From Pseudomonadota bacterium (GTDB lineage: Bacteria; Pseudomonadota; Gammaproteobacteria; Steroidobacterales; Steroidobacteraceae): a stretch of 64,000 bases of DNA. The first letter of the stretch is position 1, and each line of letters opens with the position of its first letter. This document shows positions 4,053 to 54,758 of the stretch, in pieces. Both the position numbers and the translations under genes were made by a program. The notes below the pieces were generated by a model. The model did no database searches, was not told the origin of the DNA, and was given only the letters and a program-made list of their open reading frames with translations. Where the stretch lies: contig JAJZDW010000009.1 of the NCBI GenBank assembly GCA_021851405.1, forward strand, positions 1 through 64,000, written 5' to 3'.

Positions 4053-4066
4053 TGGTATCGCTACCA
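4053..4066. promoter_or_regulatory. LacI-type operator upstream of the sugar porter
   Basis: TGGTATCGCTACCA, a near-perfect 14-bp palindrome. On the minus strand TTGACA (4092-4087) stands 18 bp from CATGGT, which overlaps the operator. The site lies 17 bp upstream of the sugar-porter ATG and downstream of the regulator gene, so the porter can be controlled apart from the regulator. Confidence 0.8.
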
Positions 4067-4105
4067 TGTCTCCCAGGGACCCGTTTTGTCAAGCGTCAGC
4101 GGACT

Positions 4106-5170
4106 TCAGGCCGCGCTTCTCGGGCGTGCCGCCGACTCTCGGGTGATCATCTCATGCGCCACCTGACGATGCACCGGCTCAGCGGCCGCGCCGCGTCGTC
4201 CACCACGGACGGCGGCGACCAACATGTCCACCGCCTCTCCGGCCATCTGTGCGATCGGCTGGTGGATGGTGGTCAGTCCCGGCCAGATGTTCGCCGCGAT
4301 CAGGCTGTCGTCGAAGCCGACCACGGCCAGATCGTTCGGCACCTCGAGACCGCGACGGTGTGCCTCGGCCATGACGGCCGCGGCCATGTCATCGTTGCTG
4401 GCGAAGATCGCGGTCGGCAGCGGTTCGACGGCGAGCAGCTTGCGGGCCGCATCCAGGCCGGACCGGAATGTGAAGAACCCCTGCTCGACGCGCGGCTGCG
4501 GCAATTGTCCGTGCTCCTCGATCGCCGCTGCAAAACCCCGCCAGCGCTCCTCGCTCGCGGTTTGATTCGGGTGACCCTTGATGAAGCCGAGCCGGGTGTG
4601 TCCGAGCGCCAGCAGATACTGGGTCATCTCGCGTGCCGCGGCGAAATCGTCGATGCTCACACACATCGCATCGGCAGGCGGACGGCCCGCAGCCACGGCC
4701 ACGATGCGCATGCGTGCGGCCTGCAACTCCGCGCGGATCACCGCCGACTCGCACAGCGGCGGCGGCAGCACCACGCCGACGACGCCGCCGGCGACCAGAC
4801 GGCGGACCGCACGGCGCGAAGCCGCCGGCGTCATCTCGCACTTCTCCAGCACCAGCTGCACGCCGTGACGGGTGGCGGCATCGAGCGCGCCGACCAGAAA
4901 TTCGCTGAGATAGGAGGCGCTCGGATTGCCGTACAGCAGCCCCATACGCTCGCCGCGGGCGCTCGCCAAGTTGCGCGCGGCGAGATTCGGCGAGTACCCG
5001 AGCTGGCGTACGGCCTGCATGACCGTCTGACGCGTCGCATCGCTCACGTACTGGCCGCCGTTGACCACCCGCGAGACGGTCATCGGCGAGACGCCCGCGT
5101 AGCGCGCGACGTCTTTGATGGTCACGCTGCGGCGGGCGCCGCTTCGGGATTTACGCACCGGTTTGTTCAT
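4106..5170 (-). CDS. LacI-family transcriptional regulator, XylR candidate
   Basis: A 354-residue LacI/GalR regulator. Residues about 16-70 form the helix-turn-helix and hinge (TIKDVARYAGVSPMTVSRVVN, then LGYSPNLAARNLA); the rest is the periplasmic-binding-protein-like effector domain, with FASNDDMAAAVMAEA and VVGFDDSLIAANIWPGLTTI as typical strands. It is the only LacI-family gene in the window, and twelve LacI-style palindromes with a central CG occur upstream of the hemicellulose genes. It is therefore the best candidate for their repressor, with xylose or a xylo-oligosaccharide as inducer. In Xanthomonas and Caulobacter, LacI-type XylR proteins bind very similar 14-bp sites. No copy of the site is visible in its own promoter, so autoregulation is not evident. 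Confidence 0.9.
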   Translation of the reverse strand: MNKPVRKSRSGARRSVTIKDVARYAGVSPMTVSRVVNGGQYVSDATRQTVMQAVRQLGYSPNLAARNLASARGERMGLLYGNPSASYLSEFLVGALDAATRHGVQLVLEKCEMTPAASRRAVRRLVAGGVVGVVLPPPLCESAVIRAELQAARMRIVAVAAGRPPADAMCVSIDDFAAAREMTQYLLALGHTRLGFIKGHPNQTASEERWRGFAAAIEEHGQLPQPRVEQGFFTFRSGLDAARKLLAVEPLPTAIFASNDDMAAAVMAEAHRRGLEVPNDLAVVGFDDSLIAANIWPGLTTIHQPIAQMAGEAVDMLVAAVRGGRRGAAAEPVHRQVAHEMITRESAARPRSAA

Positions 5171-5487
5171 CGATCCTCTGCGTTATTCTCGGTGGCGGTC
5201 GATTGCGGCCAACGCATGGGCCGGCGCACTTTAACACAGGCACAACAGCCCGAGCGCCGGCCCGGCCCGCCCCCCCGAGGGACTCGCCACCCCCGCTCGC
5301 AGCCGGCCGCGCGCACCGCATCTATGATAGCGGAACCAGATCCGGGCCGACCGTCTGTTCGCCGGTCCGCTCCCTCGCCGCGTCCACCCGCCCGGCCCCT
5401 GGCAAGAACGTCTTGAAGGGGCGCTCGGCATTCTCTACCCTCGCGAAGCGCTGTGTGGCGTCCCCGCCCTGGTCCGAGAGTTACCCC
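5171..5487. other. Intergenic region between the LacI regulator and the Kir channel
   Basis: This divergent 317-bp gap holds the promoters of both neighbours. The frame of the channel is open back to 5203 but that stretch is proline- and arginine-rich, low-complexity and unlike the family, so I treat it as non-coding. I see no regulon palindrome and no clear hairpin. Confidence 0.5.
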
Positions 5488-6372: not shown

Positions 6373-8592
6373 TTAGCGCCGACGCGGATCTCCGTAGAGG
6401 ATCCCCCGCCCGTCGGTCCCGACGTAGACTCGGCCGAAAATCCGCGGGTCCCCCGCAATGCACCGAAAACGCTGGCCATAGCGATGCCGCCGTCCGTTCA
6501 ACCGGTGCCAGTGCCGTCCGGCATCCTCCGAACGCCAGACGGCGAGGCTTCGATGGTGTCGCGCGAGAGCATACAGCGTCGGATAATGACGGCCCGGCGC
6601 CGCTTTGCCGAAGCTCAGCGCCACCACGTGCACGCCGCCGTTCACTTCGCGGAAGGACCGACCTCCATCGCGTGAGTGGAAAAGACCCCCTCGGCTCACG
6701 AGCCACAGGTCCCCGGCTCGCCCTGGCGTTGCGATGAGCGGCCACGGCTGTTCCGCCGAGCGCGGCTGATCGGCCGTCAGGCGCCGCGGCAAGCCCCGGG
6801 TTGCCTGATCGTGGAACACCCTGCCGCCATCGCCACTCACGAACAGCCGACCCGTGCGCAAGTCAATCGCATAAAGCCGACCCGCGACCGCGCGATCCGC
6901 GATCGGATGAGCGCCGCGCGGCAGACCACGCACGGTGTGCCAACTCGCTCCGTGGTCGCGGGTGAAGACTGGGGTTGCGGTCATGGCGATGAACGTACGT
7001 CCGCGCGGCGAGACGACGATCTGCCCGGTGGGACCCGGCGCCCACAACGGGTGCCAGGTACGGCCATAGTCGAGTGAGTACGCCAGCGTCGGTGCACCCG
7101 GCGCCGAGCGCGGCGCACGGGTTCCGCCGCGCACCACCACCGCAGGCGCGAGGCCTGCCTCGTCGATATCGTCCGTATTGGCAAAGACCGGATGGACGAA
7201 CTGCGCGCGCGGCGAGCGATTCAGGTGGTCGTGCGCAAACCCACTGAGATCCCCGAAGCCGCTGAGCAAGTGCGGTCCGCGCGGGGGACTGAGGAGTGTC
7301 AGCACCGCGGTCTGCTCCACGCCACGCACCCAAGGCCTCCAGAGCACCTCCCGGCCGCGGTCCACGTTGTGCAGCGCGTCGGTGGCGTACACCGTCGCAC
7401 CCGTGGTGTAGGCCGCATGCGATGGATCGAACGGATCGATTGCGACACCGGCGATCCACCAGCCGAACCGCGCATGGGCTCTGCCCCAGCGCAGGAACGG
7501 TGTGGCGCCGACATCACGCCGACTGCGCGCGCGGAGGTTTTGCCACTGCCGTCCGCCATCGACCGAGCGCCACAGGATGTCGCCGCCCCGCCAGCGATCC
7601 ACCGTGGCCACGAGCAACAGTCCGGGTCGGGCCGCATCGACGGCCAGTCCCATGAACCCACCCCGATCGGGTCCGCGTGACATCGGCGGGGTGATGTTGC
7701 GCCAGCGACCGCCGCGCGGGTCATAGCGGTAGACGGCACCGGCGGTGATGCCATTGGGGCCGACGCCGTTGCTGTAGGTGATGTAGAGCCGTCCACGTGC
7801 GCCGAGCGCCGCCTGCACCGGCAGCAAATCCGCGCCAGGCTGCCCGGGCACGGCGCGCCAAGTCACCCCGCCATCGCTCGAACTGAACAGGTGCGCCCGC
7901 CCCGCCAGGGTCAACCCGACAAAGAGCCGCCGCGAAGGGCGCCCGGGCGCGCCGCCGGCTGGATCCGGTACGACGAAGCTGATGCCGGCCTGCCCGGGGG
8001 GTGAGGCGCGCCAGCCGCGCCCCCGCCACGGAAAGGACCGCACCGGCTGCCACTGTTCGCCGCGATCGACGCTGCGCTGGAGTCCGTCGTACCGAGAGCC
8101 GAAGTAGAGGATGGCCGGATCATTCGGATCGACCGCCAGACGCTCCCCGAGGCCACGCCCCGGCATGTTGCCGCCCATGCGAAACGGGGTCGGAAAGATT
8201 TGCCAATGCGCGCCGCGGTCGCGCGAGCGCAGAAGGGCTGCCGGCTGGTTCGGGTACATCCCGGCCGCCACGTACAGCACATTCGCATTGCGCGGGTCGA
8301 GCGCGATGCTCTCGATGCCGAAATCACTCGATGTGTCGAGTTGATCCTCGAGCGCCCGCCAGCGCCGCTGCCGTGCACTCCAGCGGTACACACCGCCCAT
8401 GTCGGTGCGCAGATATGCCAGGCCGCGCTGGAGCGGACTGAAGACGATCGCCGGAGCAAAGCCGCCTCCGCCGACACGTACGCTGCGCCAACGGTAGGGC
8501 AGCACCCCGTGCGCGGCGAGCGCCGGCAGCGCCACGGACGCGCCCGCCAGCAGCGCCGCGGATCGCCTTGCCCACCGGCTCAGGCGCTGCAC
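6373..8592 (-). CDS. Secreted GH74 xyloglucanase
   Basis: The 739-residue product is built of repeated BNR/Asp-box hairpins (SRDRGAHW, SVDRGEQW, SSDGGVTW, SVDGGRQW, TRDHGASW, SEDAGRHW), the double seven-bladed propeller pattern of GH74. The N-terminal GGGGFAPAIVFSP, YLRTDMGGVYRW and GRGLGERLAVDP segments are typical of family endo-xyloglucanases and oligoxyloglucan reducing-end hydrolases. I chose the GTG at 8592, which overlaps the end of the epimerase gene by 13 bp and gives a signal peptide (RRSAALLAGASVALPALA). The open frame extends further upstream, but only through the epimerase gene. As the last gene of the xyloglucan operon it would cut the beta-1,4-glucan backbone. Secretion to periplasm or exterior is inferred. 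Confidence 0.88.
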   Translation of the reverse strand: MQRLSRWARRSAALLAGASVALPALAAHGVLPYRWRSVRVGGGGFAPAIVFSPLQRGLAYLRTDMGGVYRWSARQRRWRALEDQLDTSSDFGIESIALDPRNANVLYVAAGMYPNQPAALLRSRDRGAHWQIFPTPFRMGGNMPGRGLGERLAVDPNDPAILYFGSRYDGLQRSVDRGEQWQPVRSFPWRGRGWRASPPGQAGISFVVPDPAGGAPGRPSRRLFVGLTLAGRAHLFSSSDGGVTWRAVPGQPGADLLPVQAALGARGRLYITYSNGVGPNGITAGAVYRYDPRGGRWRNITPPMSRGPDRGGFMGLAVDAARPGLLLVATVDRWRGGDILWRSVDGGRQWQNLRARSRRDVGATPFLRWGRAHARFGWWIAGVAIDPFDPSHAAYTTGATVYATDALHNVDRGREVLWRPWVRGVEQTAVLTLLSPPRGPHLLSGFGDLSGFAHDHLNRSPRAQFVHPVFANTDDIDEAGLAPAVVVRGGTRAPRSAPGAPTLAYSLDYGRTWHPLWAPGPTGQIVVSPRGRTFIAMTATPVFTRDHGASWHTVRGLPRGAHPIADRAVAGRLYAIDLRTGRLFVSGDGGRVFHDQATRGLPRRLTADQPRSAEQPWPLIATPGRAGDLWLVSRGGLFHSRDGGRSFREVNGGVHVVALSFGKAAPGRHYPTLYALARHHRSLAVWRSEDAGRHWHRLNGRRHRYGQRFRCIAGDPRIFGRVYVGTDGRGILYGDPRRR

Positions 8593-9491
8593 GGCTCGCG
8601 GCTCACCGTCAGCGTCACGCGTGCGCCCAGCGCCTCGCCCGGCGCGAGCAGCCGCAGGCCGCTCACCGCCGGCGGTTCGATGCGATTCAGCGCATCGGGC
8701 ATGTGACTGACGGGCTCGAGGCACAGGAACGCCTCCCCGGGCGGACTGTAGACGTGCAGCCAGCGCAACGGCTCCTGGGCCTCGATGCGCACGCACACCT
8801 GCTCCTCGGGCAGCACCAGGTCCGCCCGACCGCTCCAACCGGTATAACAGTGATCCACGAGTGTCTGCGGCACCGGCGCACCGCGGCTGAAGTCCCAGAT
8901 CTGTCCCGGCGGCGCCAGCGCCGTCGGCAGGCACTGTGCATCCGCGAGCCACACGCCCTTGACCGGCGCACGCAGCCGGGCCGCCGGGGTGCGGCGCAGA
9001 TACGGATGCCAGCCGATGCCCGCGGGCATCGGTTCGGCGGCGCGGTTCTCGAGCACCAGCATGACCTCGAGTCCCGATTCGCTCAGCGTGAAGACCTGCC
9101 GTGCCCGGTAGGCCCAAGGCCACTCCCCGGCGGCGTGCTCGTAAGCGAGTGCCAATCGCCCCGCCTCGCGCGATTCGACCGTCCAAGGCTCGCGCCAGGC
9201 GTGGCCGTGCAGCGGGTGAGTCTGGCCCGGCGCATTCGGCTGCAGCTGCACGGCGCGAGTTCCAATCCGAAAGCGCCCGTGCGCGATTCGGTTGGCAAAC
9301 GGCATCAGCGCGAACCCGCTGCTCTCGAGCGGCTCGTCGATGTCAGGCGCCACCCGGCGCAGCACCTCCAGCCCCTGAAACTGCAGCCCCGCGAGCGCAC
9401 CGCCCAGATGCGCCAGCACATCGAGCGCGTAGCCGTGCTGCGCGATTCGGATCGCCTGGGGTGCGGATGATTCACTCACGTTTGACCTCAC
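8580..9491 (-). CDS. Aldose 1-epimerase (GalM-like)
   Basis: A 303-residue member of the aldose 1-epimerase superfamily. Visible family features are the FALMPFANRIAHGRF segment (the NR motif), PLHGHAWREPW with the catalytic His, IGWHPYLRR with the second His, and a C-terminal VYSPPGEAFLCLEPVSHMPDALN with the base Glu. It interconverts alpha and beta anomers of free sugars such as galactose, glucose or xylose. The start is a GTG; a second GTG 12 bases on (9479) has a better GAGG spacing. It has no signal peptide, so it acts in the cytoplasm on the products of the neighbouring glycosidases. It lies 28 bp after GH29 and overlaps GH74. Confidence 0.88.
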   Translation of the reverse strand: MRSNVSESSAPQAIRIAQHGYALDVLAHLGGALAGLQFQGLEVLRRVAPDIDEPLESSGFALMPFANRIAHGRFRIGTRAVQLQPNAPGQTHPLHGHAWREPWTVESREAGRLALAYEHAAGEWPWAYRARQVFTLSESGLEVMLVLENRAAEPMPAGIGWHPYLRRTPAARLRAPVKGVWLADAQCLPTALAPPGQIWDFSRGAPVPQTLVDHCYTGWSGRADLVLPEEQVCVRIEAQEPLRWLHVYSPPGEAFLCLEPVSHMPDALNRIEPPAVSGLRLLAPGEALGARVTLTVSREPCSA

Positions 9492-9519
9492 TGACGTCTC
9501 TCATCGTGTTTCCTCGGCA

Positions 9520-11352
9520 TCAACTCAGATGAACACGCAGCGCGAGCGCATACGTGTCGGGGTGACAGCGCGGTGGCAGCGTGACGCTGAGGCCCGCGCC
9601 GCTCTGATGCCACTGCGGCGCACGTTCCTCTCCCAGCCATTCGACGTGTCTGATCTGCCCCGGCCGCGTCGGCGCATCCGTACCGAGTGAACGGATCACC
9701 AGCGCCTCTGCGGGACACCCGAGCGCGAGCGCGTACACCACCGTGCCGGCCTTGTTGCGCGTGAAGCGGATGTCGGCGGCCGAAAGCCGCTGCACACTCG
9801 TGCCCTGAAAGGAACCGGGGTGAATGGCGCTCGGGCCCTCCCCGTAGACGGTCCACGGACGCGTCGCGTAGATCGCCTCACCGTTCACCGCGAGCCACGC
9901 GCCGATCTTGTCCAGGATGAGCCGCTCCTTGGCGTCGATCGTGCCGTCGGGCTTGCCCGGCACGTTCAGGATGAACGTGCCATTCTTGCTCACGGTGTCG
10001 ATCAGCCAGTGGATGACTTCGCGCGGATGCATGTAGCCGCCGAACTCCCCGGGCTGATCATACAGTGCGCGCAGGTAGTGCCAGTTGCCAAGGCAGGTCT
10101 CGGACTGCCACGGATAGGGGCGGATCTGCGCGCTCAGTCCGCGCTCGATGTCGGCGACCACGGATTTCTCCAGCCGCGCCGGGACCTTCTTCACCGTGAT
10201 GACCCCATCGACCGACCCGCCATGGCGCGCCAGACTACGGTTGTAGTAGTACGCCCCGAGGTTCATCCCGCCCCAGCCGAGCGGCAGCAATGGGTTGTCG
10301 AAATACAGCAGATCCGGATTGTGCTGGTCGATCAGGTCGCGCGTGCGATCGTAAAAGTTCTTCACATACGAGACGTCCGGCAGCGCATCGAACGGATGCT
10401 TCGGGCCATACAGCTGCTGCGGATCATAGCCCTCCCACCATTGTCCCTTGCCGTCGGCGAGCGTCAGATGCCCATCGTAGGGCACGCCGGCATAGAGACC
10501 CGTGCGGTCCGCGCCGTGCGCCGTCTGAAACCACCACCAATTGCGCGCCTGATGAACCGTGACCCCGAAGCGCAGGCCGCGTTGCCGCGCCGCCTGCGCC
10601 CAGGTGCCGATCACATCGCGGTGCGGTCCGATGTGGTGCGCATTCCAGGGATGGTGCGCCGAATGCCAGGTATCAAAGCCATCGTGGTGATTGGCAAGCG
10701 CCAGAAACAGCTTCGCGCCGGCACGCACGTACAGATCCATCAGTTCATCGGGCTGCCAATTCAGCAGCGTCCACTGCGCGCACAGATCCTTGTAGCCAAA
10801 CCGCGAGGGAGGGCCGTAGTGGGCCTGCTGGTAGTCGTACTGCTGGGTCTCGACCCCGTACTTCGTGCCTCCCTGGAGGTACATGTTGCGCGCATACCAG
10901 TCCCCGTCCTCCGGCACGCATTGCGGACTCCAGTGGTTCCAGATGCCGAACTTCGCATCCCGGTACCACTCCGGGCACTCGTACTGCAGCAGCGAGTCCC
11001 AGGTCGGTGCATACGGACCCTGCCCCGCCAGCCCGGCAAGCGGGGCGTCCATCGGCACCCCGTCCCAGGACCCCCCGGGCAGCGGTAAGGGCGGCGGGTG
11101 TCCCCAACCGCTCGGCCGCCACCGTGCCTCGTTCAATCGCTCGGCGGTGATGGCGTCTCCGTGCAGCACATAGAAGACCCGTTCGTCTTCCGCGGTTGCG
11201 CAAAACTGGGCGTAATCAGAGGTCTCACGCTCGAAGCTGCGCCGGAGCGGATACGGACGGAGCGCCGGCGGCACCGCCGCACCTGCTGGCAGCGGAAGCG
11301 ATGCCGCAGCCGCCGTCTCAGCCACCCATTTGATGAAGTGTCGTCGTCGCAT
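9520..11352 (-). CDS. Secreted GH29 alpha-L-fucosidase
   Basis: A 610-residue GH29 enzyme. The ATG at 11352 follows GGAGGA and begins a Tat-like signal (MRRRHFIKWVAETAAAASLPLPAGA). The barrel shows WYRDAKFGIWNHWSPQCVPE near residue 130, LALANHHDGFDTWHS near 218 (the HHDGF motif) and DLLYFDNPL with the predicted nucleophile Asp near 352; a beta-sandwich follows. Alpha-L-fucosidases release terminal fucose, which fits fucogalactoxyloglucan side chains and the rest of this operon. The N-terminal stretch before the barrel (about residues 30-125) is longer than usual and carries a Trp/Pro-rich segment of unknown role. Specificity for alpha-1,2-linked fucose is an inference. Confidence 0.9.
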   Translation of the reverse strand: MRRRHFIKWVAETAAAASLPLPAGAAVPPALRPYPLRRSFERETSDYAQFCATAEDERVFYVLHGDAITAERLNEARWRPSGWGHPPPLPLPGGSWDGVPMDAPLAGLAGQGPYAPTWDSLLQYECPEWYRDAKFGIWNHWSPQCVPEDGDWYARNMYLQGGTKYGVETQQYDYQQAHYGPPSRFGYKDLCAQWTLLNWQPDELMDLYVRAGAKLFLALANHHDGFDTWHSAHHPWNAHHIGPHRDVIGTWAQAARQRGLRFGVTVHQARNWWWFQTAHGADRTGLYAGVPYDGHLTLADGKGQWWEGYDPQQLYGPKHPFDALPDVSYVKNFYDRTRDLIDQHNPDLLYFDNPLLPLGWGGMNLGAYYYNRSLARHGGSVDGVITVKKVPARLEKSVVADIERGLSAQIRPYPWQSETCLGNWHYLRALYDQPGEFGGYMHPREVIHWLIDTVSKNGTFILNVPGKPDGTIDAKERLILDKIGAWLAVNGEAIYATRPWTVYGEGPSAIHPGSFQGTSVQRLSAADIRFTRNKAGTVVYALALGCPAEALVIRSLGTDAPTRPGQIRHVEWLGEERAPQWHQSGAGLSVTLPPRCHPDTYALALRVHLS

Positions 11353-11387
11353 CGGGAACCGTTCCTCCGCCGCCCACCGTGCGGCGC

Positions 11388-12752
11388 CTAATGCCGCAGG
11401 CGATAGAGCACCGAGCCATGCGCGGCAAGCCGCACCGTCAGAGCATTCGCACGGCCGAGGGTGCGCCGCTGCCACAAGTCCCGCAGCCGATAGCGACCCG
11501 GCGCCAATCCGAGCGCTCGCCACGACACGTTCAGGGTGCGCGCCTTGCCGGCGAGATTGAATGCCGCCAAATACCGCCCGCGCCCCTGCTGCGGCCGTGA
11601 GGTCCACACCACGAAACGGTCGCGGGCGAGGACCTGATGGGCATCCCGCGCCTCCTGATCCACCGCTATGACCTGCCGATCATCGAGCAGCGAGAGTGTC
11701 CAACGGTTCATGCGCGTCAAATTCCCACCGATCATCAGTGGCGAGCGGGCAATGCACCAGAGCGTCATGTAGGTGCGCTGCTCAGCATGGGTCAAGCGGC
11801 TCCAACGTGCCGAGCCCCATCCGGGCTGCGGGCCGAGATAGCCGATCGCGAGCATGTCCGCATCCGGCCAGTGTCCGGGGCGTGCCAGTGGCGCCCAGCG
11901 CGCAAGGCGCTTGAACTGATTCTCCACGCCCTGTGGATAGGCCTGTGCGCTGCGCCACAGATCCCAGACATCGTTCGAAATGCGCCACAGATTGGCATCG
12001 CGGCGCAGCTGCGCGAGCCGACCGAGCGGTGCGGGTCCTGGGGAGAGACTGAGCACCATCGGTCGGCCCGCGGTCCGCACCGCACGGGCCAGCATGCCGA
12101 TCTCCGCAGCCGCATACGGATGACTCGCGATGCAGTCCGCCTTGATGAAATCGACGCCCCAGCGCGCATAGAGCCGCACGATCGAATCGTAGTAGGCCTG
12201 ACCTGCGGCGTTAGCGGCCACGCCGTCATTGTCGGGACTCCAGGGGCACGGCGCATCGGCCAGCGCCGCCTGCCGGGCGTGGAACGTCGAGCCGGCAATC
12301 GGTAAATTCTCGCGTACCGCCTGCACGGGAATACCACGCAAGATGTGGATGCCGAACTTTAACCCCAGCGAATGCACGTACTGCGCGAGCGGACCGAAGC
12401 CCTTGCCGCCGGCCGCGGAGGGGAATCGGTTCGGCGCCGGCAAATAGCGGCCGTCGCGATCGAGCGTCATGACGGACCCCTTCGCGCCGCCGGACGGTGT
12501 CGGATTGCGCACGAACCACTCCGCGTCGATCACGGCGTACCGCCACCCGTAACGACGCAGATGCCGGCTCATCCACCGCACGTTGGCGCGAAACTGCGCC
12601 TCGGTAATGGTCGTGCCGTAGGCGTCGTAGCTGTTCCATCCCATCGGCGGACGGCGGGCCACCTGCGCCGCTCCGGCGAGCGCGGTGGCACAGACCAGCA
12701 GCGCGACCGCAGCCCCGGCAGCGCGCCGCAGCGGCGCCATGCGTCGAGTCAC
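11388..12752 (-). CDS. Secreted GH27 alpha-galactosidase-like enzyme
   Basis: A 454-residue GH27 protein. RRPPMGWNSYDAYGTTITE (about residue 33) is the classical family start, DFIKADC (nucleophile Asp near 206) and RISNDVWDLW (acid/base Asp near 261) are the catalytic motifs, and a C-terminal all-beta domain follows. The GTG at 12752 overlaps the stop of the GH31 gene as GTGA; an ATG four codons later (12740) is the alternative. Both give a signal peptide (AAGAAVALLVCATALA). GH27 enzymes remove alpha-galactose, alpha-N-acetylgalactosamine or beta-L-arabinopyranose. In a xyloglucan operon beta-L-arabinopyranose or an unusual alpha-galactosyl cap is as plausible as galactomannan side chains, so substrate is open. 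Confidence 0.87.
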   Translation of the reverse strand: MTRRMAPLRRAAGAAVALLVCATALAGAAQVARRPPMGWNSYDAYGTTITEAQFRANVRWMSRHLRRYGWRYAVIDAEWFVRNPTPSGGAKGSVMTLDRDGRYLPAPNRFPSAAGGKGFGPLAQYVHSLGLKFGIHILRGIPVQAVRENLPIAGSTFHARQAALADAPCPWSPDNDGVAANAAGQAYYDSIVRLYARWGVDFIKADCIASHPYAAAEIGMLARAVRTAGRPMVLSLSPGPAPLGRLAQLRRDANLWRISNDVWDLWRSAQAYPQGVENQFKRLARWAPLARPGHWPDADMLAIGYLGPQPGWGSARWSRLTHAEQRTYMTLWCIARSPLMIGGNLTRMNRWTLSLLDDRQVIAVDQEARDAHQVLARDRFVVWTSRPQQGRGRYLAAFNLAGKARTLNVSWRALGLAPGRYRLRDLWQRRTLGRANALTVRLAAHGSVLYRLRH

Positions 12753-15655: not shown

Positions 15656-15671
15656 GAGTCGTTCCTCGAGG

Positions 15672-17276: not shown

Positions 17277-17317
17277 CCGCCTCCCCTCCGACCGCCGCAC
17301 TCATCGCCCGGCAGACA

Positions 17318-17331
17318 TGGTACCGCTATCA
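17318..17331. promoter_or_regulatory. LacI-type operator of the xyloglucan operon
   Basis: TGGTACCGCTATCA. On the minus strand the operator contains most of a -10 box TACCAT (17322-17317), placed 18 bp from TTGGCC (17346-17341). Repressor binding here would cover the -10 of the six-gene operon. Confidence 0.8.
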
Positions 17332-18064: not shown

Positions 18065-18079
18065 GGCGGTCTCCATGCA

Positions 18080-19633: not shown

Positions 19634-19649
19634 GCCCCTGTCCTGCCCG

Positions 19650-21158: not shown

Positions 21159-21193
21159 TGAGCGCCCGCCCCCCCTTATGCACACCGCGAACA

Positions 21194-21229
21194 GCGGCGC
21201 CCGGCGAGTCTAGCCCAGCCGGGCGCCGC
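21194..21229. repeat. Perfect 12-bp inverted repeat between TonB receptor and halogenase genes
   Basis: GCGGCGCCCGGC (21194-21205) and its exact complement (21218-21229) are separated by 12 bp. There is no T-run, so it is more likely an mRNA-stabilising or attenuating hairpin inside the operon than a full intrinsic terminator. Confidence 0.65.
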
Positions 21230-21241
21230 GCACGGCGCACC

Positions 21242-39976: not shown

Positions 39977-39990
39977 TGATATCGCTACCA
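39977..39990. promoter_or_regulatory. LacI-type operator of the esterase operon
   Basis: TGATATCGCTACCA. TTGTCG (39963-39968), 17 bp and TACCAT (39986-39991) form the promoter, the operator again overlapping the -10. Confidence 0.82.
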
Positions 39991-40060
39991 TGTTCACCGG
40001 CTCCGCGCCGGCAGCCGTCCGGCGGCGGCGAGCGGCGTGCCGAAGAATGAGGGGAATGCC

Positions 40061-46877: not shown

Positions 46878-46904
46878 GCGAAATCCCTCGACTCGGCCGC
46901 GCGC

Positions 46905-47642
46905 TCAGCGCGCCGCGGCGTCGGGTGCGGCGGCCAGCCCCGCGGTGTGCTCGAGCAGACGCGCGTTCTTCACTCGCGCCATCTCGCGCACCTGTTTCAG
47001 CGAGGCGATCATGAGCTGGATCAGCGTCAGGTAGCCACGCCGGAACAGCTCGACCACCACCGCATCGGGCAGCCTCGCGAGCGTGTCCTGATTGATGGTG
47101 TAGAGGCCCTCACACTGGCGCAATGTGCCGTCCTCGAATTCCACCTCGATGTCGATCGGCTCGATCAACTCGAGCTCGAGCAGACGGGTGATGAAGATCC
47201 GGGTGCGCTCGATGCCGGGCACCAGGTCCTGAAAGGCCCAGATGATGCTCTGCAGGTAGCGGCTCGGCTCGCCCTGTGCACTGAACAGCGGCTTGCCCTC
47301 GCCGACGGCGACCCGCGGGTGATCCAGGTCGACGGCGAGCCCCGGGCCCTGGGCGTAAAAGGGCTCGCGCTGCAGGCTGAGCGGTCGGTAGAACTGCGCG
47401 TCGCGCTGCCAGTCGTGAAGGAACTGATTCTCTCCCGCGACGAACCCAAGCATCGCACCGCAGAAGAACTGGCCGGTCTGCGCCTCTTTGCCGAACAGGA
47501 TCGGATAGTGCACCAGCAGATGCGGGAATTCATTGACGATCACCTGCACGAAGTGCCGGTTGTCGCCATAGGCGGCCGAGGCGCGCGCGTCGATCTTCAG
47601 TTCGCGGTGCGCTTCTTTGCTGAGCGGTACGATGTTCGTCAT
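46905..47642 (-). CDS. SapC-like family protein
   Basis: A 245-residue protein of the SapC-like family. Recognisable stretches are the N-terminal NIVPLSKEAHRELKI, FVQVIVNEFPHLLVHYPILFGK, TGQFFCGAMLGFVAGENQF, PLSLQREPFYA and the C-terminal half with a YTINQDTLARLPDAVVVELFRRGYLTLIQLMIASLKQV helix pair. It has no signal peptide or membrane segment. The family name derives from S-layer-related annotations and is not a proven function. Its constant partners are a TonB receptor, a halogenase-like flavoprotein and a cupin-like protein, as here. It starts 11 bp after the halogenase stop. Role in oligosaccharide use unknown. Confidence 0.87.
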   Translation of the reverse strand: MTNIVPLSKEAHRELKIDARASAAYGDNRHFVQVIVNEFPHLLVHYPILFGKEAQTGQFFCGAMLGFVAGENQFLHDWQRDAQFYRPLSLQREPFYAQGPGLAVDLDHPRVAVGEGKPLFSAQGEPSRYLQSIIWAFQDLVPGIERTRIFITRLLELELIEPIDIEVEFEDGTLRQCEGLYTINQDTLARLPDAVVVELFRRGYLTLIQLMIASLKQVREMARVKNARLLEHTAGLAAAPDAAAR

Positions 47643-47653
47643 GGCGGCGGCAA

Positions 47654-49201
47654 TCAGATCGGCTGCAGGCCGTATTGGTGAATCTTATTCAAAAGCTCGC
47701 GGTTCGTCGGCAGCCGCATGCTCAGCTCGCCGATCATCTTCTCATTATCCTGCACGCAGCGCCGCGCGGTCGCAGCGGTATCGATGGTCTCCTCGGCAGC
47801 CACTTCGGTCTTGAACCCCATGCCGTAGAGCACGTACTGGTAGCTCGCCGCCGGGAATACCTCCTCCAGCCGATCGAACTCATCATAGAACCACGGCGAC
47901 TGGTAGCGCCAGAGCGTCAAGAGTTCCCGCAGCCGCTCCGGCACGGTCGCCGGATCGCAGTTGTCGCGCCAGAATGCGGTGTCGGTGCGCCGGGTCAGCA
48001 CATAGTGCAGCTTGAGAAAATCGATGATGCGGCCCCAGCGATACATCGTGGTCTCGTTGAACCGCTTGGCCACGAGATCCATGACCTCGTGGCAGGCCGG
48101 CAGCTGCTCGGCGAGCAGCTTCGCCGACAGCTCCACCAGCACGATGGCCGAGGACTCGAGCGGCTCGAGGAAGCCGCTCGAGAGGCCCACGGCCACGCAA
48201 TTGTTCTTCCAAAACGTCTCGCGGTGTCCGGCATGGATCGGGATCTTGCGCACCGGCAGATCGCGGTGCCGAGGCCCGATGTAGCGCAGCAGCGTCTCGC
48301 GCGCGGCCTCCTCGCTGGTATGGCGGCTCGAGTACGCGTAGCCGACCCCGCGGCGCGTCGGCAGACAGATATCCCAGGTCCAGCCGGCCTCGTGGGCCGT
48401 GGAGATGGTCTGCGAGGCGAGCGGTGCATCGGGAGATTCGTACGGCACCTGCACCGCGAGCGCCGTATCGCAGAAGAGAACATCGCCGCACTCGCGAAAG
48501 CCGACCCCTAGGGTCTTGCCGATCAGAAGTGCCGAAAAGCCCGTGCAGTCGATGAACAGGTCACCCTCGATCTGTCCGGCCTGGCGGGTGATCAGGCTTT
48601 CGATGTTGCCGGATTCACTTTGCCGCACCGACTCGACATCGGCCAGCACGTGACGGACACCGAGCGTCTCGCTGCAATGCCGTGCGAGAAACACGCCCAA
48701 TTTGCCGGCATCGAGATGGTAGGCGTAATTGGCCGGCGCCCGATACTCGCCGTGCGCAATGGTCTTTGGCGCAAGCCCGGCATCGCACAGCCGGCCTTGC
48801 GGAGTCACGAAATCACAAAAGCTGACGGGGCCGCCGGCCTGTAGCCAGTGCGGCACGAGGTTCACCCGACTGAAGCCCTGAGGAACCATGAGGGGGTGGT
48901 AGTAGGCATCGTCGGCCTCACCGGTGGTCCAGCCGACGAACTTCGCTCCCTGCTTGAACGCCGCATCGCATTCGCGAAACAGCGCGGTCTCCGAGACGCC
49001 CATCCGCTCCAGCGTCGAGCGCATCGTCGGCCACGTGCCCTCCCCCACGCCGATCGTCCGGATTTCCGGAGATTCGATCAGCGTGATCGAAAGGCCGCCC
49101 GCCTTCATCCGAGCTTGATGGCGGGCGGCGATGATGCCTGCGGTGAGCCAGCCAGCGGTTCCTCCGCCGACGATGACGACCGCCTTGACAGGCTTGTTCA
49201 C
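47654..49201 (-). CDS. Tryptophan-halogenase-like flavoprotein, paralogue 3
   Basis: A 515-residue protein starting at a GTG directly after the receptor stop codon. FAD motif GGGTAGW, VGEGTWPTMRSTLERMG, AFKQGAKFVGWTT (conserved Lys retained) and [12 protein letters not shown] are present. The WxWxIP motif is altered to WTWDICLP, and the Lys motif reads FKQGAKF rather than FKLGIEF. It therefore belongs to a different clade from the other three paralogues in this window. It is in the classic receptor-halogenase-SapC-cupin order and shares the operator at 52540. Substrate unknown. Confidence 0.87.
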   Translation of the reverse strand: MNKPVKAVVIVGGGTAGWLTAGIIAARHQARMKAGGLSITLIESPEIRTIGVGEGTWPTMRSTLERMGVSETALFRECDAAFKQGAKFVGWTTGEADDAYYHPLMVPQGFSRVNLVPHWLQAGGPVSFCDFVTPQGRLCDAGLAPKTIAHGEYRAPANYAYHLDAGKLGVFLARHCSETLGVRHVLADVESVRQSESGNIESLITRQAGQIEGDLFIDCTGFSALLIGKTLGVGFRECGDVLFCDTALAVQVPYESPDAPLASQTISTAHEAGWTWDICLPTRRGVGYAYSSRHTSEEAARETLLRYIGPRHRDLPVRKIPIHAGHRETFWKNNCVAVGLSSGFLEPLESSAIVLVELSAKLLAEQLPACHEVMDLVAKRFNETTMYRWGRIIDFLKLHYVLTRRTDTAFWRDNCDPATVPERLRELLTLWRYQSPWFYDEFDRLEEVFPAASYQYVLYGMGFKTEVAAEETIDTAATARRCVQDNEKMIGELSMRLPTNRELLNKIHQYGLQPI

Positions 49202-52200
49202 CTAGAAGCTGGCGCGCAGTCCAATGGTATACGAACGGCCGTAGTCTACCAGATTGAGCGTCTGGTTCTTAAACCGGCCATAGGTGTGGTACACCGAATC
49301 GGTCAGGTTCAGCGCCTCGAAATACGCAGTCAGATGCTTATTGATCGCGTAATTCGTGCTGAAGTCCACTTCCGTATTCGACGCCAGATACACCGGCTCG
49401 GCCCCGAACGCTCCACCGCTCTGCTCCTGTCCGAGCCCGAGCAGCTGGGAGGCCTGCCACTGCACCGCGAGGCGCGCCTGGATTCCGTGCTTCTGGTAGA
49501 ACGCGATCAGGTTTGCCGAATTGCCCACACCCGGCAGCGCGAACTGGTTCGAGGTCGTGCTGTAGGTATTGAAATTCGCATTGCTGTGCGCGTAGGTGCC
49601 ATTGACCAGGAACCCGAAGCCCCACTTCAGCATCTGCTGCCAGGCGACCGACACACCGGTGACGGTGGCCGAAAGCTGGTTGGTGTAGGTCGTTTCCGCG
49701 AAGGTCAGCGGCTGTCCGCAGGTGTTCGACAGCGGCGCGCCATTGTAGGTGCACGGCGCCGGATCGGTGACGCCCGGAACCTGCACAGAAGACACGCTCG
49801 AAGTCGGGAAATTCGTCACCCGCTTCATGAAGCCCTCGATCGAGGCGTAGTCGTTGGACGCGTAGTACCACTCGGCGCCCAGATTGAAGTTGCTGGACAG
49901 ATAGGGCATCAGACCCGGATTGTTCCCCGTCGCGGTGAGCGCATTGACGCGTCCGCCGTACGAGGTATTCGGCAGCAGCTGCCCATTCGGCGGCTGACTC
50001 TCGGTGCGCGAGAAGTCGGCCCGCAGCTTCAGATCCCGGGTGACCATCAAGTTCAGGTCCAACGACGGCAGGAAGAAGCCGTAGGAGTTGGTGGTCTCGG
50101 TCCACTGCGGTGAGCCCAGCTTGAACGAGTACGCCGTCGGATCGCCCGAGCCGCTCCAGCCGACGCTCAGCAACGGCGCCTGCAGGCCCGCAATCGTCTC
50201 CTGCGTGTGGTCGTAGCGCAATCCGACACCGACCTTCAACGTCATGGAGCCGACCGGGAAATTATGCTCGACGGTGACGAAGGGGTCGTAGTTCATGCGC
50301 GCCACGTGCTGCACGGACGAGGGGCTGAGCGCCAGCGCCGGAATGCCGCCGGTGTAGGCCGGATAACCGTCCTGCACGGCGGTCGCATTGGCACTCGGAT
50401 TGACCGGCTGTCCGGTCAGGTAGTTCAGCACCGCATACGGGTTGTACATCAACAGAGATGACGGCAGGTTGCTCGCCCCGCTGAAGCCCGGCATCCACGG
50501 CGAGATGTTCGCGGTGGAGATCAGCGATGAAGGCAGCGCCACGCCGTTGCCCGGCGACGTTCCGTAACCGGACCAGAGTTCCCAGTAGTTGTTGGTGAAG
50601 GTGTCCATTTCCTTGCTGTTCCAGTCATCATCGATGAACTGGGCGCCGAACTTCACCCGGGTCGAGTCTTTGTGCCAGCTAGCCGAAAGCTGCGCCTCGT
50701 TGACCTGATCGGTGTTCATCTGGTCCTGGATCGGCAGCACGTGCGAGCCGATGATGTACGGATTCAGACCGTTGTAGTTCGCCGCGGCAACCGCCGAGGA
50801 ACCCGAGGCGACTGCGCCCGGTCCATACGCACTCCAGTACGGCAGCACATTGCTGTTCTGGCTCAGCGCCAGACCGCCGGTGTAGTTGTTGGCCGCCGTG
50901 TTGCCATAGCCGACGTCGGCATCGATGTCGGTGTAGCCGCCGTTCGGATTGAACTTGGACACCGAGTGATCGGCATCGAGTTCCATGGTCCAGTTGGCGT
51001 TGGCATCCCACAGGACGTTCAGGCCCGTGGTATTGGTGGTGATGTAGTTGACGGCGACGAACGAATTGAAGTCCGTCGGTCCGTTGTAGTTGAAATTGGT
51101 GATCGTGCCATTGCCGTCGAGCGTCGCACCCGGGAAGTTGCCGAACCACGTACTGCGCTGCCAGCGCGTGGTGTGCTCGTCGTCCGAGGAGTAGTTGTCA
51201 TCGACGGTGACCATCACCGAGTCGACCGGATGCCACTGCAGAGACACGCGCCCGTCCTTGCGGCGCGAATCGGTGCGCTCGAGGTACATGGCCATGTCCT
51301 GCGGGTACCACACCGGCACGTTGCTGTTGCCGACCGCGCCATTGCCGACGGCGGCGCAACCGGTATTGCCGAACGCGGTGGTGTAGTTGGCCGCGAGGTT
51401 CGAGCAGGGGAACGAGGTGTTGCCCTTCCAACCGACGATGTCCTGGTGGTGACCGAGGATGTGCGAGTCCATGTAGTCGCCGTCGACCAGGATGCCGAAC
51501 TTGTTGTGATCGAAGGTGTCGCTCCACAGCGCACCGAAGCTCGGCCGGAAGCCGCCGTCCATGCTGTGGGTGTTCTCCGAGATCTGCACCTGGCTGTGCA
51601 TGCCCGGATTGTCGAACGCATTGGGGAACTTGACGTTGATCGTCGCGCCGATCGCGCCACCGGACAGAGCCATGTCCGGCGTCTTGTACACGTCGACTTC
51701 GCCGACGTACACGGCGCTGAAATCGCTGAAATTGAAGGTCTGGCCGTTACCGGAGGCGATCTGCCGTCCCTCGACCAGCACCTTGTTGAAGGAACCGCCG
51801 AAGCCATCGACCGTGATGCCCTGCACCTGGCCGGTCGCGGTCGGTGCGCCGGTCGCGCTCGCCTGACTGAGACTACCACGGTTGACCGTGACGCCCGGGA
51901 TGCGCGAGATCGCCCCGCCGATGGTCGCATCGGGGAACTGTCCGATCTGCTCAGCGGAGATCGCATCCACCACGCCGATCGAGGCCTTCTTGATCTCCAG
52001 TGAGCGCATCAGAGAGCCGCGGATACCGGTCACGACGATCGGCTGCAGTTCCGTCGCGGAATTCGCCGCCGCCTGGATGGTCGCGCTGCCGGCGGCGTTT
52101 TGCACCGGCCCGGTGTTCATGGCGAGCAGACCGGCACCGTTGCGTGCAAAGAGTCCGCTCGAGGCCATCGGCGTTGCCGGCCGACCGCGGCGCTTGACCT

Positions 52201-52411
52201 TGGCCGCCGCCCCCGGCACCGCCGGCTGATCCGTACCCGTGCCCGCCGAGGCGGTCGCGGCATGTGCCACGCCCTGCGCGGCGAGGGTCATCGACCCCAG
52301 CGCGAGCCCCGACAACCCGATTTTGGCGTAGGCCGATCGGCCCAGCGCACCGACACCGGCGTTCTTCTTGAACGCGTGCTTCGATGCGTTACGCAATGTC
52401 TTCCGACTCAT
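49202..52411 (-). CDS. TonB-dependent outer-membrane receptor 2
   Basis: A 1069-residue receptor. The ATG at 52411 is preceded by GAGGGGGC; a long, basic N-terminus (MSRKTLRNASKHAFKKN) leads into a signal (LSGLALGSMTLAAQGVAHAA). After an Ala/Gly-rich linker comes the plug: LQPIVVTGIRGSLMRSLEIKKAS, VDAISAEQIGQFPDATIGGAISRIPGV, ITVDGFGGSFNKVLVEGRQIA and VDVYKTPDMALSGGAIGATINV. The Tyr/Asn/Thr-rich barrel ends YTIGLRASF, a typical outer-membrane C-terminus. It heads the operon with halogenase 3, SapC-like and cupin-like genes, and resembles the oligosaccharide receptors of xanthomonad xylan loci. Xylo-oligosaccharides are the likely substrate. Confidence 0.92.
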   Translation of the reverse strand: MSRKTLRNASKHAFKKNAGVGALGRSAYAKIGLSGLALGSMTLAAQGVAHAATASAGTGTDQPAVPGAAAKVKRRGRPATPMASSGLFARNGAGLLAMNTGPVQNAAGSATIQAAANSATELQPIVVTGIRGSLMRSLEIKKASIGVVDAISAEQIGQFPDATIGGAISRIPGVTVNRGSLSQASATGAPTATGQVQGITVDGFGGSFNKVLVEGRQIASGNGQTFNFSDFSAVYVGEVDVYKTPDMALSGGAIGATINVKFPNAFDNPGMHSQVQISENTHSMDGGFRPSFGALWSDTFDHNKFGILVDGDYMDSHILGHHQDIVGWKGNTSFPCSNLAANYTTAFGNTGCAAVGNGAVGNSNVPVWYPQDMAMYLERTDSRRKDGRVSLQWHPVDSVMVTVDDNYSSDDEHTTRWQRSTWFGNFPGATLDGNGTITNFNYNGPTDFNSFVAVNYITTNTTGLNVLWDANANWTMELDADHSVSKFNPNGGYTDIDADVGYGNTAANNYTGGLALSQNSNVLPYWSAYGPGAVASGSSAVAAANYNGLNPYIIGSHVLPIQDQMNTDQVNEAQLSASWHKDSTRVKFGAQFIDDDWNSKEMDTFTNNYWELWSGYGTSPGNGVALPSSLISTANISPWMPGFSGASNLPSSLLMYNPYAVLNYLTGQPVNPSANATAVQDGYPAYTGGIPALALSPSSVQHVARMNYDPFVTVEHNFPVGSMTLKVGVGLRYDHTQETIAGLQAPLLSVGWSGSGDPTAYSFKLGSPQWTETTNSYGFFLPSLDLNLMVTRDLKLRADFSRTESQPPNGQLLPNTSYGGRVNALTATGNNPGLMPYLSSNFNLGAEWYYASNDYASIEGFMKRVTNFPTSSVSSVQVPGVTDPAPCTYNGAPLSNTCGQPLTFAETTYTNQLSATVTGVSVAWQQMLKWGFGFLVNGTYAHSNANFNTYSTTSNQFALPGVGNSANLIAFYQKHGIQARLAVQWQASQLLGLGQEQSGGAFGAEPVYLASNTEVDFSTNYAINKHLTAYFEALNLTDSVYHTYGRFKNQTLNLVDYGRSYTIGLRASF

Positions 52412-52539: not shown

Positions 52540-52553
52540 TGGTACCGCTATCT
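52540..52553. promoter_or_regulatory. LacI-type operator of the TonB receptor 2 operon
   Basis: TGGTACCGCTATCT, 129 bp upstream of the receptor start. On the minus strand it contains TACCAT as a -10, but the -35 region is weak (TCGGCC at 16 bp). Confidence 0.72.
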
Positions 52554-52963: not shown

Positions 52964-52977
52964 TGGTAGCGTTATCT
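52964..52977. promoter_or_regulatory. LacI-type operator of GH35-2
   Basis: TGGTAGCGTTATCT, 65 bp upstream of the GH35-2 start. TTATCT can act as the -10, with a poor -35 (TCGGCC at 17 bp). Confidence 0.72.
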
Positions 52978-53042
52978 TGACCCTGTGCACGCCGCCGTTC
53001 TACGCTGCCGCAGTCCGCCCGTCCGTCGGAACGAGGAATTGC

Positions 53043-54665
53043 ATGCCCTGCCGTCCTTGCGCCTGTGCCGCCGCACTGCTGTGGCTGTGCGGCGGTGCTG
53101 CCGCTCGCGCGAATCCCCCCCCGCAATTGCTGCAGGTCGCCGGGCACACCGAGTTGCGGGTGCAGGGCAAGCCCCTGCTGCTGCTCGGCGGGGAACTCGC
53201 CAATTCCTCCGCCGGCACGGCCGCCGCGGCCGCTCGGGTGCTGCCGGCGCTCGCCCGGCGGGGCTTCAACACGATCCTGATGCCGGTCGCTTGGCGGCAG
53301 ATCGAGCCGCGTCCGGGCCATTTCGACTTCGCGGTGCTGGATCAGTGGATCGCGCGCGCACGCGCGCAGCACCTGCACTTGGTGCTGCTGTGGTTCGGCA
53401 GCTGGAAGAATGCCCTCTCCAGCTACGCACCCACCTGGGTGCTCACCGATCCGCAGCGCTACCGGCGCGCGCGCTCGGTGAGCGGCGCACCGCTGCCGAT
53501 GCTCTCGGTGTTCGGCCGCGCGACGCGGCGAGCCGATGCGCAGGCATTCGCCCGGCTGCTGCATCACCTGCGGCGCATCGACGCACGGCAGCAGACGGTG
53601 GTGATGGTGCAGATCGAAAACGAGGTCGGTTACCTCGGCCTGGGGGGGCGTGACCGCTCGAGCCGCGCCAACCGGCTGTTCGCGCGACCCGTGCCGGGCC
53701 GATTGATCCGCGTGCTGCAAGCGGCACACTGCCGGCTGCCGTGGCGTCTGAAGCATGCGGTGCATCTGACGGGAGGCACTTGGACGGCGGTGTTCGGTCC
53801 GCTCGCCGATCAGGCGTTCATGGCGTGGTATTACGCCCGCTACGTGCAGGCCGTGGCACGCGCCGGGCTCGCCCGCGATGCACTGCCGGTGTATATGAAT
53901 GCTCAACTGCCGGCGCCACACGAGCGCGCCGGCCATTACCCGAGCGGCGGCCCGGACCCGCTGATGCAGCCGATCTATCGTGCCGGCGCCCCGGCGATTG
54001 ATTTCTACGCCCCGGACATCTACTGGCCGGACTTCGAGCGCTGGGTGAGTCGCTACCGCCGCGCCGGCAACCCCATCTTCGTCCCCGAATCGCGCCGCTC
54101 CCTCGCCGCGTTCGATGCGCTGTACGTGTTCGGACAAGCACGCGGCTTCGGCTTTTCGGCGTTCGCGGTCGATCAGCCGCCGCCGCAGGGCGATCGGCCG
54201 CAGCGTTCGCTCGCGGCCGTGTACGAGGCGCTGCGGCATCTGGCCCCTGCGCTTCTTCGCGCGCAACGCGCCGATCGGACCCGCGCGCTGATTCTGCATC
54301 TCGACAGTCCGCGGCCCGAGCAGACGCTCGCACTGGGCGGTTACTGGTTCCGGGCCACGCTGGCGCGCGACTGGAAGAGCGGCCGGCCGCTGACGCACAC
54401 GGGCGCGATGCTGCTCATCGAGCGGCGCGCGGGCGACTTCGATCTGCTCGGCATGGGCCTCACCGTGACCGTGCTGCGTGATCCGGATGTCGACACCGGC
54501 ATCGCCGGCATTGCGCAGGTGGATCGGCTCGCGTGGCACGCCGGCCGCTGGCGTGTTGTGCAGCGCCTGAACGGCGATCAGACCAACCAGGGCCGGCAGA
54601 TCCTGCTCTCAGCGCACCACGTCGGGGTGTACCGGGTGCGCCTCTACAGCATTGCGCGGCGCTGA
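53043..54665 (+). CDS. Secreted GH35 beta-galactosidase-like enzyme, second copy
   Basis: A 540-residue paralogue of the GH35 enzyme of the xyloglucan operon. The ATG at 53043 follows GAGGAA and starts a signal peptide (PCACAAALLWLCGGAAARA); the frame is open upstream but crosses the operator. ILMPVAWRQIEPRPGHFDFAVLD marks the barrel; VVMVQIENEVG has the acid/base Glu near 194 and IFVPESRR the nucleophile Glu near 349. A C-terminal beta domain follows (GDQTNQGRQILL also occurs in variant form in the paralogue). It may remove beta-galactose or beta-xylose-linked caps from xylan side chains. It has its own operator and no cotranscribed partner. Confidence 0.88.
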   Translation: MPCRPCACAAALLWLCGGAAARANPPPQLLQVAGHTELRVQGKPLLLLGGELANSSAGTAAAAARVLPALARRGFNTILMPVAWRQIEPRPGHFDFAVLDQWIARARAQHLHLVLLWFGSWKNALSSYAPTWVLTDPQRYRRARSVSGAPLPMLSVFGRATRRADAQAFARLLHHLRRIDARQQTVVMVQIENEVGYLGLGGRDRSSRANRLFARPVPGRLIRVLQAAHCRLPWRLKHAVHLTGGTWTAVFGPLADQAFMAWYYARYVQAVARAGLARDALPVYMNAQLPAPHERAGHYPSGGPDPLMQPIYRAGAPAIDFYAPDIYWPDFERWVSRYRRAGNPIFVPESRRSLAAFDALYVFGQARGFGFSAFAVDQPPPQGDRPQRSLAAVYEALRHLAPALLRAQRADRTRALILHLDSPRPEQTLALGGYWFRATLARDWKSGRPLTHTGAMLLIERRAGDFDLLGMGLTVTVLRDPDVDTGIAGIAQVDRLAWHAGRWRVVQRLNGDQTNQGRQILLSAHHVGVYRVRLYSIARR

Positions 54666-54744
54666 ACGCCGCGGGTGTTCCCGGGACGTGCGCACCCCTG
54701 CGCTGACGGCCGCGCCGGCGGCGCGGCACCATTGACGGCGCCAT

Positions 54745-54758
54745 ATTGATACCGCTAC
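54745..54758. promoter_or_regulatory. LacI-type operator of xylA
   Basis: TGATACCGCTACCA. TTGACG (54730-54735), 18 bp and TACCAT (54754-54759) form the promoter. The start of xylA is 189 bp further on, so the transcript has a long leader containing two copies of a GCGCGCGTAA sequence (near 54788 and 54898). Confidence 0.82.

Follow-up and report, generated by a model that had tools for sequence, protein, structure and literature searches.

A candidate XylR regulon joining xylose, xylan, uronate and xyloglucan genes in a member of the Steroidobacteraceae

Gene and box content of the locus

We analysed a 64-kb stretch of DNA (the window) on one contig, C9, of a 3.52-Mb genome. Near one end it encodes a 354-aa XylR-like regulator (4106..5170, minus strand) that belongs to the LacI family by Pfam (LacI and Peripla_BP_3 domains) and has the recognition helix SPMTVSR. 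Beside it on the same strand lies a xylE-like D-xylose transporter gene (2537..4036; Sugar_tr; NF007484 XylE 567 bits, below the cut-off of 608), and an exact copy of the 14-bp box TGRTANCGNTAYCA stands at 4053..4066, 16 nt before the xylE start. A box between xylR and xylE recurs in 7 of 10 relatives with the orthologue (8 of 11 counting the window). The preliminary description had stated that no box precedes the KirBac gene; it missed one at 5325..5338 (15.8 bits), which lies between the regulator and KirBac genes, 154 nt from the regulator start and 149 nt from the likely KirBac start at 5488. Eleven same-genus copies of this stretch were compared besides that of the window: eight carry 15.5-23.0 bits, and the box is weak or lost in three (L128, 11.0 bits; G189 and L132, 4.1 bits each and probably one record).

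The xyloglucan block comes next. Its minus-strand operon (6373..17300) encodes GH35, GH31 alpha-xylosidase, GH27, GH29, an aldose epimerase and GH74 xyloglucanase, with PDB sequence matches among xyloglucan hydrolases, alpha-xylosidases and GH35 galactosidases, and an exact box (17318..17331; 22.2 bits) stands ~41 nt before the likely GH35 start (17276). A further minus-strand unit (17411..24394) comprises a TonB-dependent receptor, two tryptophan-halogenase-family genes and a 221-aa unknown. Both this receptor and a divergent LysR-family regulator gene (24625..25614, plus strand) are preceded by a tandem box pair (24528..24555), in which the weak 24528 site (10.0 bits) abuts that at 24542 (17.2 bits).

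Uronate, xylan and xylose genes fill the remainder. An exact box at 27038..27051 separates a fructuronate reductase-like gene, uxuB (25563..27023, minus strand; Mannitol_dh; PRK15037 330 bits, below the cut-off of 603), from genes for GH67 alpha-glucuronidase and glucuronate isomerase UxaC (27085..30825, plus strand); the likely starts on either side are 14 nt and 33 nt away. A minus-strand unit (30907..35546) encodes an MFS transporter, taken as exuT-like from its context, along with mannonate dehydratase ManD and a 648-aa protein that has no Pfam family; the unit has a one-mismatch box (35581..35594) 34 nt before the MFS gene. An exact box at 35678..35691 lies 26 nt before the likely start of a GH3 gene (35718..38075, plus strand), whose product is probably a beta-xylosidase, judging by context. 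Xylulokinase XylB (38401..39858, minus strand; TIGR01312 553 bits, passing the cut-off of 380) possibly begins at CTG; the exact box on its side (39889..39902) would fall inside the reading frame if an upstream ATG or GTG were used. A second exact box (39977..39990) faces a plus-strand run of GDSL esterase, glucuronoyl esterase-like and acetyl xylan esterase-like genes (40037..44429). One-mismatch boxes precede a minus-strand unit of TonB receptor, halogenase-family, SapC and cupin_8 genes (45858..52411; box 52540..52553) and a second GH35-like gene (53043..54665, plus strand; box 52964..52977). The last exact box (54747..54760) precedes xylose isomerase XylA (TIGR02630 604 bits, passing the cut-off of 533) and a halogenase-family gene (54948..57779, plus strand). 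Operators are predicted before the xylose and xylan genes xylE, xylA, xylB, GH67, GH3 and the esterases.

A position weight matrix built from the XylR loci of other genera and scanned over the window gave 12 positions of at least 14 bits, against 0.03 expected. The window holds seven exact copies of TGRTANCGNTAYCA (4053, 17318, 27038, 35678, 39889, 39977, 54747) and five with one mismatch (5325, 24542, 35581, 52540, 52964), whereas a first-order Markov model of the window predicts 0.0019 and 0.10, respectively. Palindromic symmetry holds at 4 to 6 of the 7 pairs in each box, and for 6 of the 12 the nearest likely start is 14-41 nt away. Eleven of the twelve sites originally listed were recovered at 14 bits or more. 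The other, 24528 (CGATAGCGCTGTCA, two mismatches), is marginal at ~10.0 bits, a level that chance gives 0.5 times per window, and the site placed at 54745 is a real exact box whose coordinate should be 54747. The looser pattern behind that list, at up to three mismatches, matches the window 30 times against 11.1 expected. The broader claim of the preliminary description stood, in that the boxed units in the window are the hemicellulose ones, as did its exclusion of the multicopper oxidase: the matrix scan of the window found no position of at least 12 bits before this gene or beyond 54760.

Looping between paired boxes was considered and set aside. Paired boxes are spaced by 97 and 88 bp in the window and by 97 and 76 bp in the relative G018. 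As no constant phase is kept, it is simpler to assign one box to each divergent promoter.

Distribution in the genome and across the family

The genome contains eight exact boxes, all on C9 and within 67 kb, one of them outside the window at 71167. Random density genome-wide had been named as grounds for abandoning the motif; the exact form is clustered (8/8 on C9), but the one-mismatch scan gave 32 matches, fewer than the 68 of a reversed control, and by itself told little. Thirteen of the 19 off-contig one-mismatch places were inspected, those on C17, C32, C43, C60, C64 and C74 being left out. Six (C11, C23) belong to a different paired palindrome, five lie inside coding sequence (C76, C21, C39, C42, C38) and one (C46) lies between genes that were not identified. 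The sole convincing one of the 13, C12:28223, has a GH3 gene on one side and an arabinofuranosidase-like gene on the other.

Across 200 genomes of the family, the 45 with an orthologue of the regulator hold 230 boxes against 63 in the reversed-pattern control, whereas the 155 without it hold 54 against 78. Box and orthologue co-occur (Mann-Whitney p 1.4e-24), an association in which a shared plant-polysaccharide lifestyle is not separated from the effect of XylR. Within the genus, 134 boxes occur in 19 genomes with the orthologue and 11 in 22 without, 6 of these 11 coming from one 84%-complete genome. Outside the genus, seven genomes with the orthologue have just one exact box, and G121 and G143 have none; large genomes are also high in the control (G074, 7 vs 4; G106, 9 vs 5).

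At the best 80 named relatives' loci we found 61 boxes against 0 controls, spread over 48 loci; in the stretch examined per locus, the exact box is absent from the other 32. Six exact boxes of G018 and G038 lie off the main contig. Four of them precede GH10, a GH51-type arabinofuranosidase, GH9, or a paralogue of the 648-aa protein with GH3, and two, both in G038, are inside coding sequence. The G038 box at C45:70312 has no recognised gene downstream.

Likeness to known XylR systems

The regulator matches proteins from Caulobacter, Asticcacaulis, Pseudoxanthomonas, Luteimonas and Sphingomonas at ~51-58%, a comparison with these genera's proteins rather than with characterised XylRs, and many loci of these relatives carry the box. 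Beside the Asticcacaulis relative it reads TGGTAGCGCTAACA, letter for letter, the form printed as the Xanthomonas xyl-box in the available text of PMC10380989. For the Caulobacter regulon, the same text describes XylR as leaving the xyl-box when xylose is present (PMC10380989). The association of the box with the LacI protein, its recurrence at the relatives' loci and its identity in Asticcacaulis with the printed xyl-box together point to the known XylR/xyl-box regulon, a candidate assignment from sequence. The boxes are very probably operators of the predicted XylR orthologue at 4106-5170. The resemblance to the Xanthomonas and Caulobacter box noted in the preliminary description was borne out, and the proposal of one regulon under this protein gains support from the co-occurrence of box and protein across the family and from the SPMTVSR helix, found in only this one of the genome's eight LacI-type helices and unchanged across 11 orthologues.

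The Xanthomonas XylR regulon, in the available text of PMC10380989 and PMC1790865, is likewise headed by a LacI-family regulator and includes xylan, xylose and TonB-receptor genes. The seven exact boxes of the window match TGGTAGCGCTAACA except at 2 of 14 positions, and the 71167 box except at one. A link of the Xanthomonas regulon to hrp has also been reported. Unlike the Xanthomonas regulon, all eight exact boxes here fall in one 67-kb stretch, and a xyloglucan operon is boxed. Caulobacter relatives of the regulator have TGTTAGCGCTAACA beside them. Caulobacter uses an oxidative xylose route, whereas the window encodes xylose isomerase and xylulokinase.

Without inducer, the repressor would sit on boxes often close to start codons and block transcription. 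Its release would follow when xylose or a short xylo-oligosaccharide enters via the boxed TonB receptors and XylE, with a joint rise of transport, xylan and xyloglucan depolymerisation, and uronate and xylose catabolism. The 5325 box may mediate autoregulation of the regulator. The locus would document a XylR-type regulon, with a clear gene list, in a genus of the Steroidobacteraceae represented here by metagenome assemblies alone.

Control of the xyloglucan genes and alternative readings

GH74, GH31 and GH35 genes are grouped in the window as in the Xanthomonas-type XyGUL, with a TonB receptor and a LysR gene nearby as in that system (available text of PMC8245568). The Xanthomonas-type set of GH95 fucosidase, two TonB receptors and an esterase is absent from the block in the window, where GH29 replaces GH95, there is one TonB receptor, the operon has no esterase by Pfam, GH27 and the epimerase are added, and halogenase-family genes and the XylR box are present.

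The box itself is known, and its use on xyloglucan genes looks like an extension of the regulon. Among 17 loci of relatives, 8 place a GH31-bearing unit within reach of a box. The window, G190 and, weakly, G139 have their own box before GH35; in G191, G119, G189 and G186 the GH31-bearing genes are colinear with a boxed uxuB; and in G077 the xyloglucan locus itself contains a xylR relative, and GH74 and GH35 are each preceded by a box. Somewhat short of an even chance, in our judgement, is the wider reading that in this gammaproteobacterial family xyloglucan use came under the xylose repressor more than once and along different routes, with xylose side chains serving as the sole cue for the two hemicelluloses and the KirBac potassium channel perhaps answering too. 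Among the matches listed in the open-licence literature, no work describes xyloglucan genes of this family preceded by a XylR box; the available text of PMC4052901 says nothing on a XylR regulon, and PMC5343134 contains none of the terms looked for. The comparison makes it testable whether one pentose repressor can do the work of the galactose-linked regulation that has been proposed next to the xyloglucan cluster of Xanthomonas.

It is unlikely that the xyloglucan operon is mainly under the LysR protein (24625-25614) and the 17318 box minor or idle. Such control has been proposed for the galactose-linked GamR beside the Xanthomonas cluster (XAC1767, whose locus number adjoins the X. citri xyloglucan cluster; available text of PMC8245568), and LysR genes lie near GH31 or a TonB receptor in the window, G139, G190 and G147. 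The xylA1 gene of the X. citri xyloglucan operon is called not XylR-regulated in the available text of PMC10380989, and in G111, whose GH31 is 90% identical, a box was sought next to GH35 and none found. Against LysR control stand the 22.2 bits of the 17318 box, strong boxes before equivalent genes in G190 and G077, and the colinearity of GH31 with a boxed uxuB in four relatives.

Less probable still is binding of some or all boxes by another LacI-type protein of the genome, for which the likeliest site would be the TonB-receptor tandem at 24528/24542. The genome has eight LacI-type matches, and palindromes like TGACATCGATATCA occur in side-by-side pairs 15-17 bp apart, much as 24528 and 24542 are paired at 14 bp; two of three such pairs precede TonB receptors, the third a trehalase and a divergent unknown gene. 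However, the boxes track the orthologue of 4106-5170 across 200 genomes and adjoin its relatives in other genera and classes, and the remaining seven LacI-type proteins differ in the recognition helix. Chance palindromes of a GC-rich region, suggested by the ~11 random matches expected of the three-mismatch pattern, are a vanishingly improbable source of the boxes and were rejected on the Markov expectation and the other-genera matrix, with the genome clustering and the co-occurrence with the orthologue likewise opposed.

The 648-aa protein of the ManD unit had no match in a PDB sequence search, and a 634-aa protein gave one, at chance level (E 0.29). The family of the 648-aa protein, without a Pfam entry or a convincing PDB sequence match, has a predicted fold resembling GH42/GH164.

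A palindromic box and the units it precedes

In the window, the 14-bp palindrome occurs as seven exact and five one-mismatch copies of TGRTANCGNTAYCA, against Markov-model expectations of 0.0019 and 0.10. To reduce circularity, we scored with a matrix whose 42 source boxes, all exact and distinct, come from loci L134-L207 of XylR relatives. Loci of the same genus (L128-L133) were excluded; L134, with 97% identity across part of the protein, was kept but is boxless. Because the source boxes were chosen by a fixed pattern, the matrix is sharper at the fixed positions than one from an unconstrained alignment. The 12 best window positions scored 14.7 to 23.3 bits and the next 10.0, while 60 simulated windows held a mean of 0.03 positions of at least 14 bits. 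Eleven sites of the preliminary description are among these 12, which bears out its observation of a recurring box; its list lacked the site at 5325.

With operons deduced from gene order and start codons chosen by our reading of the sequence, the boxed units are xylE; xylR/KirBac (xylR at 4106-5170, minus strand); GH35-GH31-GH27-GH29-epimerase-GH74; a TonB receptor unit and the LysR gene divergent from it; uxuB with GH67-uxaC; MFS-manD-648 aa with GH3; xylB with three esterases; the other TonB receptor unit with a GH35-like gene; and xylA. Among solved structures, GH74 matched xyloglucanases, GH31 alpha-xylosidases and GH35 beta-galactosidases. Four tryptophan-halogenase-family genes lie in hemicellulose units (18080-21185, 47654-49201, 56274-57779): TonB receptor units hold three of them, and the fourth follows xylA. 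At xylB (39858), the only candidate start codon downstream of the box and ahead of the conserved LYLGIDIG is CTG, with no ATG, GTG or TTG there in the window or in the relative G038; in G018 an ATG stands five codons ahead of the LYLGIDIG start. Upstream starts at ATG 39909 or GTG 39903, if used, would place the box within the gene.

Co-occurrence with a XylR-type regulator

The LacI-family regulator has 354 aa, and its helix SPMTVSR, found in just one of the genome's eight LacI-type helices, is unchanged across 11 orthologues. In a first sample (35 of 60 genomes, orthologues at a threshold of at least 51%, counted by hand), 11 genomes with an orthologue held 46 exact boxes against 10 in the control, and the remaining 24 held 9 against 10. 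Across 200 genomes, the 45 with an orthologue held 230 boxes (control 63) and the 155 without held 54 (control 78). The earlier interpretation as a XylR-type hemicellulose regulon is largely supported; KirBac had been described as boxless, yet the box at 5325 sits between it and xylR.

The xylR-xylE intergenic box is present in 8 of 11 genomes, the window counted; G044 has a box beside xylR and no xylE match, a contig end interrupts G004, and G003 has no box. With a matrix derived from most of the same named loci, positions of at least 14 bits were found within 400 bp upstream of xylR in 33 of 74 loci with enough flank (reversed control 0) and within 400 bp downstream in 31 of 68 (control 2). 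The named loci with identities of 86% or above come from metagenome assemblies. On the KirBac side, or within 500 bp upstream of xylR, eight relatives (G018, G038, G111, G191, L129, L130, L131, L133) scored 15.5 to 23.0 bits, and scores were weak in G189 (4.1), L132 (4.1) and L128 (11.0). Since a GH67 gene takes KirBac's place in other genera (L105, L108, L113, L114), the box in the window's genus may be an operator for xylR and not for the channel gene.

Probable extension to xyloglucan genes

The xyl-box has been published as TGGTAGCGCTAACA, with xylose reported to release XylR in both Caulobacter and Xanthomonas (PMC10380989), and a 20-bp palindrome is reported as common to their xylose genes and TonB receptors (PMC1790865), so this kind of system is already established. 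For X. citri, the cluster is described in PMC8245568, with a proposed GamR modulation by galactose, and a 2026 review notes that XylR control of the xylan loci as in other xanthomonads had been proposed (PMC13282271). According to PMC10380989, xylA1 of the xyloglucan operon lies outside XylR regulation, whereas the window's xyloglucan operon is boxed. Judged from predicted sites, the additions are this genome and the extension to xyloglucan genes; the box set is ordinary in kind and useful in detail.

A window-like GH31 is present in 18 of 200 genomes, and a XylR orthologue accompanies it in 16 of 18, versus 29 of 182 others (Fisher p 4e-10); the two exceptions are 84% and 72% complete. A common plant-polysaccharide lifestyle could also cause this association. 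G018 lacks the xyloglucan block at the syntenic position, and no window-like GH31 was found in G018 or G038. Boxes of at least 12 bits precede a unit able to include GH31 in 8 of 17 relatives' loci (reversed control, 1 match in 17). The box reaches the GH31-bearing unit via uxuB in G191, G119, G189 and G186, the last three having GH31 with or without GH27 and no GH35 or GH74 match; scores were 14.7 bits in G139, 22.2 in G190, 14.2 (weak) in G044, and 21.1 on two arms in G077, whose locus also holds a XylR relative. The two boxes of G111, 550-730 bp ahead of GH35, were excluded from this count, and the remaining eight loci, several interrupted by contig ends, showed no box before GH31 units. 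The G077 relative (C29, 14658-15593; L231) is 55% identical and lies inside the xyloglucan locus, where GH74 and GH35 are each preceded by the same box sequence.

Boxes beyond the window and a candidate hydrolase family

In the genome (3.52 Mb, 97% complete), the eight exact copies of TGNTANCGNTANCA all fall within positions 4053-71180 of contig C9; TGGTANCGNTACCA with one mismatch allowed occurs at 11 places, 9 on C9 (control 9 places). Off C9, a box at C12:28223 separates a GH3 gene from a divergently oriented arabinofuranosidase-like gene. The eighth exact box (C9:71167) begins 42 bp ahead of the start of a 634-aa gene (C9:71209-73113, plus strand; L012 7310-9214), whose product is a 46%-identical paralogue of the 648-aa protein (window 30907-32853, minus strand). 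Both have an N-terminal hydrophobic stretch, judged by eye, and neither has a Pfam family or a convincing match in a PDB sequence search. The predicted fold of the 648-aa protein (pLDDT 76.5) resembles those of GH164 and GH42 enzymes (9-13% identity, TM about 0.5); the pair is a candidate new glycoside hydrolase family. The 634-aa form has an upstream box in all seven same-genus genomes examined; none was found for nine copies from other genera.

A second palindrome type, TGACATCGATATCA-like, occurs in adjacent pairs at C11:79663/79679, C11:95478/95495 and C23:9975/9990 (L034-L036), two of the pairs preceding TonB receptors and the third a trehalase, and is perhaps the operator of another LacI-type regulator.
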